64,000 nucleotides of DNA, from positions 434,001 through 498,000 of the forward strand of contig NZ_BNAG01000004.1 in NCBI RefSeq assembly GCF_014653175.1. Direction: 5' to 3'. Below are positions 1,830-4,476 of the stretch, piece by piece. The notes beneath the pieces were generated by a model. That model made no database searches. It was not told where the DNA came from and saw only the letters and a list, made by a program, of their open reading frames with translations. The translations under genes were made by a program, and so were the position numbers. Position 1 is the first letter of the stretch. Each line of letters opens with the position of its first letter. Source of the stretch: Roseivirga thermotolerans (GTDB lineage Bacteria > Bacteroidota > Bacteroidia > Cytophagales > Cyclobacteriaceae).

Positions 1830-2306
1830 TTACCAGGCCACTGTGCCGTAGTTGTCTTTTTGCTCGTTGGGCATTGACGAGCTTCTGTTACGGTTGATGT
1901 TGATATCTTTAGACGATCGGGAAGGGGAGCTGGAGCTTAGCTCAGGCATTTCCACCTGTTCACCCACTGTCACTTTGCCGTTCATCTCGGCACCGTTTTC
2001 AACCGAAATCTTTTTGGCATATATCTTACCGTAGATTCTGGCGTTTTGAGCCAGGTGTAAGTGCCCATTGGAGAGCACATCGCCATTTACATAGCCTTCT
2101 ATGGTAATGTCCGAACCACTCAAATTGCCTCCAATCTCGCCATGCGATCCAACAATGATTTTTTCTCCCGAAATCAGATCGCCAGTAACAAATCCATCGA
2201 CCCTAATGCTGTGTTCGGATTTCATGTTGCCCGATATTACGGAGCCTTCACGAATCTGAGTAATTAAGGTAGATGGATTGTTTGTTGCTTCGGCTTTTCT
2301 ACTCAT
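1830..2306 (-). CDS. Bactofilin (polymer-forming cytoskeletal protein)
   Basis: Bactofilins polymerise without nucleotide into filaments through a right-handed beta-helix and scaffold cell-shape or envelope enzymes. This 158-residue protein has the expected build: a short polar N-tail ending in TLITQIREGSVISG, then a repeat region of about 90 residues with short beta turns (RVDGFVTGDLISGEKIIVG, IEGYVNGDVLSNG, ISVENGAEMNGKVTVG), then a Ser/Arg/Asn-rich disordered tail. Its ATG overlaps the stop codon of the upstream actin-like gene by one base (TAATG), so the two are almost certainly co-transcribed and translationally coupled. A GC-rich inverted repeat (1820-1826 / 1833-1839) overlaps its stop codon. 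Confidence 0.92.
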   Translation of the reverse strand: MSRKAEATNNPSTLITQIREGSVISGNMKSEHSIRVDGFVTGDLISGEKIIVGSHGEIGGNLSGSDITIEGYVNGDVLSNGHLHLAQNARIYGKIYAKKISVENGAEMNGKVTVGEQVEMPELSSSSPSRSSKDININRNRSSSMPNEQKDNYGTVAW

Positions 2307-3361
2307 TAGTATTCAGCGGGTATTGAAGATTCTGTACTCAAGTTATTTTCATCATACACAGAAATGATAGTGGTGGCATTTCCTATGTCCAGACCCACTG
2401 CATTTCCTTTCACCCCTCCGTTCAACTGAGCAGAATTTATGCAATAGCCACGGCTGGCAAGTGTTTGCGGTTCAAAAGCCACTTCCAGATCCAGAATATC
2501 TTGAAACTCTTCTTTGAAACATTCAACCAACTGAGGGTAGAGTGCTCCGCCCCCGGCAAGGAACATGCGGTGCGAAACGGTAAAGTCGTTGTCGTTAAAG
2601 GCCTTGCGCATGGCCGGAGACACAACGTCTTCGTAGTATTGTCTAATTACTTTGTCTCTGATAGACTTAATGTCGATACGCTTTCTATTCAGGAATATCA
2701 CACCTTTTTGAAAGGCTACATCAATTTGATGTTCTGTTTTCAACTCCAGGTAGTAGGTTTTAGCCAGCTCTTTTTCTAACAGGTTTACAGCATATCGCAA
2801 ACCGTAGGTAGAAAGCGATGTTCTCTGTACTATACCGCCTTCAGTGCTCAACAATCCTTCCAGAGTACCATATCCCAGAGACATCACAAAGAAATTGCCG
2901 TCTACTTTCTGATTTCCCTTTCTAAGAGCAATGGCGCAGCCAATAACTTCAGGAATTACCTGTACATGATCAATTTCTACCTGCACATTTTTCTTTGAGC
3001 CTCCACCGTAAGTAGCTGCATCGTATTCAATCACATGATTGGCGTTGATTTGCTGCGTTGCTTGCTCTTTGTATAGCTGAAAAGTAGAGAAAGGAAATCC
3101 TGTGGTTACTGTAAGCGGATTGCCCAACTTTTGATTGGCAATTAATAAACCTGACTTGAGTAGTAGGTTATAATCCAACTCATCGGGGGCACTATTAATG
3201 TTTCTGTGTGGAGACACACCCTCGGTGAGGGCAAGGTTACCAATTACGTAACCATCGTTGTTGTGAAATATTTTTAGCCCGTTAATCAGGTCAGGAGATA
3301 CATTTCTTAGGTCGGTGTTGTTTCCTTCTATAACACTAGGGAAAGTGTAAGTTTTGAACAT
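2306..3361 (-). CDS. Actin/ParM-like ATPase with circularly permuted motif order
   Basis: 351 residues. Reading in order: FPSV (7-10), GYVIGNLAL (37-45), a TGFPFSTF strand (87-94), VQVIPEVIG (133-141), a phosphate-2-like loop SLGYGT (161-166), an adenosine-binding AGGGA (269-273), and SRGY (303-306), which normally marks the end of ParM/Alp proteins. After that comes VGLDIGNATT (322-331), the phosphate-1 beta hairpin that normally opens the protein. The N-terminus starts exactly where the segment after phosphate-1 should start. This is the order expected for a circular permutation; there is no phosphate-1 motif upstream of the ATG. The usual Asp of phosphate-2 is Ser161. It is co-transcribed with the bactofilin, so a filament-forming or scaffold role is inferred; segregation of DNA is possible but no centromere-like repeats were seen. 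Confidence 0.85.
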   Translation of the reverse strand: MFKTYTFPSVIEGNNTDLRNVSPDLINGLKIFHNNDGYVIGNLALTEGVSPHRNINSAPDELDYNLLLKSGLLIANQKLGNPLTVTTGFPFSTFQLYKEQATQQINANHVIEYDAATYGGGSKKNVQVEIDHVQVIPEVIGCAIALRKGNQKVDGNFFVMSLGYGTLEGLLSTEGGIVQRTSLSTYGLRYAVNLLEKELAKTYYLELKTEHQIDVAFQKGVIFLNRKRIDIKSIRDKVIRQYYEDVVSPAMRKAFNDNDFTVSHRMFLAGGGALYPQLVECFKEEFQDILDLEVAFEPQTLASRGYCINSAQLNGGVKGNAVGLDIGNATTIISVYDENNLSTESSIPAEY

Positions 3362-3499: not shown

Positions 3500-4375
3500 T
3501 TAGTTGTTAATGACAATGGCGAGCTTATCATTCTCCTGGCTAACAGCCATACGCGTAATTCCTTTAGAGGCCATTGCACCCAGGTCGGCTACTTCCTGCC
3601 AGTTGGAGTGGTGCTTTGGATTGAAAGCCAGAAGCTTAGTGCCCACACTGGTAATGTAGGTTCCCTGTCCGGTAATGGTCCAGTCAGAGGCATTGGCAGG
3701 CTTTTCAATTACCTTAAAAAACTCGTTTTTACTACGCTCTAAGCGGTAAATAATAGTAGACCCGTTTTCTTCTCTTCTTTCAAAGGTAAACTCATTAGTA
3801 CCCGGAATATGCCTTATGGTACGGCCAACGTTGCTGGTTATAATGTCATCGTCAACTACCGAAGTGTTGGCTAATACCAAGGTGACCGGCCGCCCTAACA
3901 CAAACATGAGTACATCGCCTTCGTGGTATGCAAAATAGCCGACCGGTTGAATTTTTTCGAACAAAAGCTGCGGTTCGGTTTTTCCATCCATTTGGTAGAG
4001 CCACAATCGTTGGCTATTGTCTTCTTCAACCCGTACTACAGCAAACGACTGGTAACCCGGAATAGGATAGGGCGAATATTCACTGTCGGCCGAGTGGGTA
4101 AGGTTGGTGCTTTTGTTTTCATAAAGGTCATAAATCATGATGTCGTTCTGACCATCTTCCTGATGGGCTGAATAGAGAATGTAATCGTTATTGAAGAAGG
4201 CCGGCTGGTTGTCATAACCGTTTCTGTTGGTAATGTTTCGGCCTTTGCCAAGAGTTATTTTGCCCTTTTTCTCTTTGATTTCATACACGTGAATGTCGGT
4301 GCTGGGAGGGGCTGTTTGGCTTCTGGCACCGGTAACCAAGAGCATTAGCACCAGTGTGCCCATTAGCTTTTTCAT
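3500..4375 (-). CDS. Exported TolB/WD40-like beta-propeller protein
   Basis: 291 residues from the MKKLMGTLV start, which gives a clean signal peptide cleaved near GARSQ; the longer upstream extension was rejected because it has no signal features. The mature part has repeated short beta-strand blocks such as NQPAFFNNDYILYSA, DIMIYDLYENKSTNLT, and SPYPIPGYQSFAVVR, like TolB/PD40 propeller blades. A periplasmic ligand-binding or envelope role is likely. It is in the same orientation as, and 138 bp upstream of, the actin-like gene, so co-transcription is uncertain. The specific function is unknown. Confidence 0.65.
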   Translation of the reverse strand: MKKLMGTLVLMLLVTGARSQTAPPSTDIHVYEIKEKKGKITLGKGRNITNRNGYDNQPAFFNNDYILYSAHQEDGQNDIMIYDLYENKSTNLTHSADSEYSPYPIPGYQSFAVVRVEEDNSQRLWLYQMDGKTEPQLLFEKIQPVGYFAYHEGDVLMFVLGRPVTLVLANTSVVDDDIITSNVGRTIRHIPGTNEFTFERREENGSTIIYRLERSKNEFFKVIEKPANASDWTITGQGTYITSVGTKLLAFNPKHHSNWQEVADLGAMASKGITRMAVSQENDKLAIVINN

Positions 4376-4476
4376 ATATATAGTGGTTAAAGTGGGATCG
4401 GAAATTAACGAAATATGGTTTGAATTGAAACGGGCAGAAAGCCAAACCTTTACCGCTACATCAAGTTTGTTCATTT

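Follow-up and report, generated by a model that had tools for sequence, protein, structure and literature searches.

The window that we analyzed (the whole 64-kb stretch of Roseivirga thermotolerans DNA) carries on its minus strand a gene for an actin-like protein, here called P0001, and, immediately downstream, a gene for a bactofilin. The stop codon of the former and the start codon of the latter overlap in the sequence TAATG. The features on which we draw are the following:

2306..3361, minus strand: gene for the predicted permuted actin-like ATPase P0001 (351 aa), an open reading frame with matches to Pfam ALP_N (E 3.5e-10) and PHROG 691 (E 2.4e-20)
2369..2398, minus strand: phosphate-1 motif VGLDIGNATT, residues 322-331, C-terminal (conserved in 41 of 41 homologues; supported by tail-only matches)
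2402..2440, minus strand: new linker, about residues 308-320, between the former C-terminal end and the phosphate-1 strand (variable in sequence and length)
2543..2557, minus strand: adenosine-loop motif AGGGA, residues 269-273 (GGG invariant, 41 of 41)
2864..2881, minus strand: phosphate-2 loop SLGYGT, residues 161-166, with Ser replacing the canonical Asp (41-member alignment)
2948..2950, minus strand: Glu138, the catalytic Glu position (invariant, 41 of 41; HMMER alignment with Hsp70 E175)
1830..2306, minus strand: bactofilin gene, 158 aa (Pfam Bactofilin, E 2e-22)

P0001 also has FPSV at residues 7-10 and SRGY at residues 303-306, and a further 20 residues follow VGLDIGNATT. The preliminary description of this DNA, which was made from its letters alone, had proposed a rotated order of these motifs, and the positions it gave for FPSV, the phosphate-2-like loop, AGGGA, SRGY, and VGLDIGNATT are all exact in the 351-aa reading frame. 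Its assignment of the phosphate-1 hairpin to the C-terminus is likewise upheld, in that VGLDIGNATT occupies residues 322-331 and the invariant positions of the motif recur in all 41 homologues. It had further claimed that no phosphate-1 motif lies ahead of the ATG. Indeed, none was present in the three minus-strand frames over 1.1 kb upstream of the gene, the frame of P0001 stays open for only two codons beyond the ATG, and the strict pattern G[LIMV]D[ILMV]GN[AS]xT occurs just once in the six frames of the 64-kb window, within P0001. The strand of the gene, the bactofilin that follows it, and the loss of the phosphate-2 Asp are additions to that description.

Matches of conserved-domain profiles to P0001 begin part of the way into the profile. 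ALP_N aligned with residues 3-141 from profile position 17 of 148, and PHROG 691 (a phage partition protein) with residues 31-306 from profile position 49. In addition, there was a weak Pfam MreB match to residues 264-306, the C-terminal GGG region, and a weak Pfam FtsA match (profile positions 1-27) to residues 322-348. We then rotated the proteins by cutting the tail three residues before the motif and placing it at the front, with shuffled tails serving as the control. After rotation, ALP_N started at position 1 instead of 17 and was collinear from 1 to 148 in one piece, and PHROG 691 started at position 6 instead of 25-49 and was collinear from 6 to 318, also in one piece. With ALP_N, rotation raised the score of the relative L010 from 34.5 to 47.3 bits (+12.8; shuffled tails, 35.9-37.2), that of the relative L006 from 54.3 to 64.8 (+10.5; shuffled tails, 54.6-57.0), and that of P0001 from 40.7 to 44.4 (+3.7; shuffled tails, 41.6-41.9). 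The corresponding values with PHROG 691 were 77.9 to 92.6 for L010 (+14.7; shuffled tail, 81.5), 82.2 to 96.0 for L006 (+13.8; shuffled tail, 82.7), and 74.0 to 75.6 for P0001 (+1.6; shuffled tail, 73.3). Shuffled tails changed the score by -0.7 to +3.6 bits overall. The gain was thus clear in the two relatives but small, indeed marginal, for P0001 itself; P0001 carries extra residues after the hairpin. The preliminary description had suggested looking for a profile match that spans the join, and the rotated proteins provided one with both ALP_N and PHROG 691, albeit with little gain in the case of P0001.

The tail by itself found as its best matches the N-terminal phosphate-1 positions of the glycerol/diol dehydratase reactivases, FtsA, and HSP70, each of them weak (best E 0.017-0.024). 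We also sought a canonical-order relative within the Bacteroidota. With ALP_N, in 297 genomes, all matches were permuted, every one starting at profile positions 16-21, and a scan of the phylum with PHROG 691 returned a single strong match in canonical order. This ParM-like gene (L071, 1267-2157, minus strand) encodes fewer than 297 aa and may lie on a plasmid or a contaminant contig. A profile-profile comparison with canonical Alp7A relatives gave no signal for any rotation and so speaks neither for nor against permutation.

A genome scan identified relatives of P0001 in Roseivirga spongicola (91%), another Cytophagia bacterium, Odoribacter, Azobacteroides, and Culturomica. The distribution across the Bacteroidota is patchy: permuted actins were found in 23 of 396 genomes sampled across the phylum, in 13 of 119 genomes of the window's own family, and in 13 of 92 genomes of another family. 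These counts are lower bounds, because the Pfam family search of the source genome missed P0001, which direct hmmscan found. In all 41 full-length homologues from across the phylum that we aligned, GxDxGNxxT is C-terminal and no N-terminal copy exists, and G323, D325, G327, N328, and T331 are invariant; further permuted members exist beyond these 41. A homologue with an intact N-terminal phosphate-1 motif would, according to the preliminary description, have refuted its reading, yet all of the homologues have the same permuted order and none of the 41 has such a motif. The mean column entropy is 0.73 bits for the motif, 2.26 bits for the linker that precedes it, and 1.51 bits for the core, and the linker is about 18 residues longer in Odoribacter. 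The low entropy and invariance of the motif next to so variable a linker indicate that the motif is under strong selection. Because the break point is common to all members, the sequences suggest, by inference, that a single permutation event lies behind the family.

Two artefacts could be set aside. A misannotated start is ruled out in that extending the reading frames of the members upstream gains no more than a few dozen codons and the N-terminal motif is missing from every member, and an assembly or frameshift error is ruled out because the order recurs unchanged in at least 41 genes belonging to many genera. Nor is the gene evidently that of a plasmid or phage, as no match was found in phages, plasmids, or viral contigs. 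In one metagenome-assembled genome of Azobacteroides (L007, 4992-6061) the permuted-actin gene is split across three frames, so that either this copy is decaying or the assembly is wrong there. Within one group (f36; loci L016, L020, L021, L032, and L033) each permuted-actin gene has its own bactofilin, and two of the genomes of this group (G147 and G195) harbor two copies of the permuted actin.

Does P0001 adopt an actin fold? Two AlphaFold models built from shallow alignments, which drew on only part of the loci, had a mean pLDDT of only 49.7 and 55.2. The core (about residues 140-296) was modeled, but the termini scored mostly 20-35, and residues 322-331 had no placement in three dimensions. 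A Foldseek search with the better model returned the archaeal actin Ta0583 as the top match (E 9e-12), and also pCBH ParM (TM 0.58), Dh-cParM1, and MreB. Since the nearest folds are actins and the termini are poorly modeled, the fold class is supported, within the limits of low-confidence models, whereas the location of the hairpin is not shown. It follows that an exchange of hairpins between protomers is not excluded: the C-terminal strand-loop-strand could insert into the next protomer in trans, so that the fold would be complete only in the polymer. The variation of the preceding linker in length and sequence would be compatible with such an arrangement, as would the lack of any structure that places the hairpin. 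The linker of P0001 is short, however, at about 13 residues, and in known actin folds the old C-terminus lies near strand 1. Closing in cis is therefore the simpler solution, and we regard exchange between protomers as unlikely. A hairpin that completes the fold of its own chain remains our preferred reading.

Of the motifs expected in the nucleotide site, the phosphate-1 motif, the GGG of the adenosine loop, and Glu138 are invariant among the 41 homologues, and the phosphate-2 loop is present but without its Asp: position 161, the equivalent of that residue, is Ser in 38 members, Gly in two, Asn in one, and Asp in none. We take this position to be that of D170 in ParM R1 and D199 in Hsc70. 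Mutating this Asp in ParM R1 or Hsc70 lowers hydrolysis. Its absence, considered together with these mutants, leads us to predict slow turnover or long-lived polymers. By analogy, then, the substitution suggests slow ATP hydrolysis by the permuted actin.

The best sequence matches to the body of P0001 are chromosomal and plasmid-borne ParM proteins of the ALP type (pCBH ParM, 6ixw/6izr, and Dh-cParM1, 8x1i) and PHROG 691. The match to the PDB profile of pCBH ParM had an E of 3.1e-7, and pCBH ParM and Dh-cParM1 are also among its nearest folds. Whereas ParM and PHROG 691 proteins start with phosphate-1, P0001 ends with it, and whereas pCBH ParM keeps the phosphate-2 Asp, P0001 has Ser. ParM partition systems lie on a plasmid or prophage, with a centromere and a neighboring gene for a DNA-binding adaptor; the P0001 locus is chromosomal and has a bactofilin instead of an adaptor. 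Ta0583 (Pfam MreB-like_C), the top fold match, has the canonical order, and relatives of P0001 reach or come close to the cut-off of MreB-like_C. MreB shares the actin fold, but P0001 falls far below the MreB family cut-off, and the source genome encodes a full MreB besides P0001 (420 bits).

Given that its nearest sequence relatives (PHROG 691, pCBH ParM, and Dh-cParM1) are partition proteins, P0001 could be a chromosomal, ParM-like motor for DNA segregation, its motif order being incidental and the bactofilin serving merely to scaffold DNA or the proteins of partition. Bactofilins have been linked to chromosome segregation systems, which would fit such a role. But the neighbor is a bactofilin, in some loci with a tetratricopeptide-repeat (TPR) protein in between, rather than a recognized adaptor of the ParR type; the plasmid and phage collections yielded no copy; and the missing phosphate-2 Asp speaks against fast dynamic instability. 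We consider a segregation motor improbable and favor instead a permuted actin that works with the bactofilin. Finally, the view that the C-terminal GxDxGN is not phosphate-1 at all but a short, unrelated element in a protein that has lost its nucleotide site could appeal to the weakness of the tail-only matches and to the failure of the models to place the motif, but it can hardly be correct when the motif is invariant in 41 of 41 homologues, when the tail, in its best matches, aligns with phosphate-1 at the N-terminus of profiles and chains of the actin superfamily, and when the matches to two independent profiles reach back to the profile start after rotation.

FcmB, from a cyanobacterial actin-like family described only recently, is an actin-like morphology protein that, like P0001, is chromosomally encoded. 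The NCBIfam model for FcmB matched P0001 only weakly (E 5.5e-4, 18.9 bits against a cut-off of 300). To our knowledge, chain order is considered constant across the actin fold, in actin, MreB, ParM, FtsA, and Hsp70 alike, and we know of no natural circular permutation of this fold described before. Our search of the literature, from which subscription papers were excluded, found no earlier report of a permuted actin. Neither permutation nor a bactofilin is mentioned in the closest of the recent papers, that on FcmB (PMC12645912) and that on chromosomal ParMs (PMC12270681).

The bactofilin gene next to P0001 encodes a bona fide member of its family (PF04519) that is divergent from the conserved stand-alone copies. 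Of the 41 homologous loci, 30 have a bactofilin gene downstream in the orientation of the actin gene, as judged within the available stretch; among these 30 are all 14 loci that belong to the Roseivirga family or to its closest relatives. A gene intervenes at three loci (L012, L018, and L019) and encodes a TPR protein where it could be typed. The adjacent bactofilin is absent from the remaining 11 loci, those without it being from Odoribacter (where acetate genes come next), Azobacteroides, and two further genera (g97 and g62). Among ten genomes surveyed for bactofilins, the two without a permuted actin (G146 and G049) have exactly one each, whereas the six with the linked pair carry, besides others, an additional divergent bactofilin at the locus. 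In a bactofilin tree with weak deep branching, 10 of 14 unlinked copies form a cluster in which most branches are shorter; outside this cluster fall the linked copies, many of them on long branches. From gene order, we infer a partnership between the actin and the bactofilin.

Other neighbors vary. Upstream of the actin gene in the window (3500-4474, minus strand) is a gene for a secreted-looking protein of 324 aa with a weak beta-propeller (PD40) match; among the loci examined, it accompanies the actin gene only in the window's genus and nearest relatives (L001, L002, and L053). In genus g62 the permuted actin has no bactofilin next to it; a pentapeptide-repeat protein is encoded upstream and a sortilin-like protein downstream, as typed at locus L011 (1-1440 and 2570-4009), and open reading frames of similar size flank the permuted actin at two other loci of the genus (L013 and L014). 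Pentapeptide repeats, too, are beta-solenoids.

What is new here is an actin-superfamily protein with permuted order, and there is good support for that order in P0001 and its family. The phosphate-1 loop and the first two strands of domain I would have left the N-terminus for the C-terminus, placing the new termini in the former turn between strands 2 and 3 of subdomain IA, with the linker bridging strand 1 and what used to be the C-terminal end. The permuted chain would fold back into an actin-like ATP site that is completed by the C-terminal hairpin. We think it probable, with some reservation, that P0001 is a natural, circularly permuted ATPase of the actin superfamily that acts as a filament or a switch and has the downstream bactofilin as its likely partner; ATP binding, polymerization, and contact with the bactofilin are inferred, there being no ATP or filament data. 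Such a protein would bind ATP, would hydrolyze it slowly, the phosphate-2 Asp being Ser, and may act as a nucleotide-controlled filament or switch. Presumably co-translated with its dedicated bactofilin, which would form a static polymer, the ATPase could position, nucleate, or cap that polymer and in so doing control the assembly or membrane location of the bactofilin. More tentatively, and with the odds in our estimation somewhat against it, the permuted actins found across the Bacteroidota, with an ATP site completed by the hairpin that is synthesized last, damped hydrolysis, and a dedicated bactofilin, might constitute a two-component cytoskeleton in which a nucleotide-dependent polymer is joined to a nucleotide-free one.

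The regulators of bactofilins are poorly known. A permuted actin paired with a bactofilin would offer a natural system for studying how a nucleotide-driven relative of actin works with bactofilins, and a conserved permuted actin would reveal where the fold and the filament accept new termini. The permuted actin thereby makes a new kind of bacterial cytoskeleton testable.
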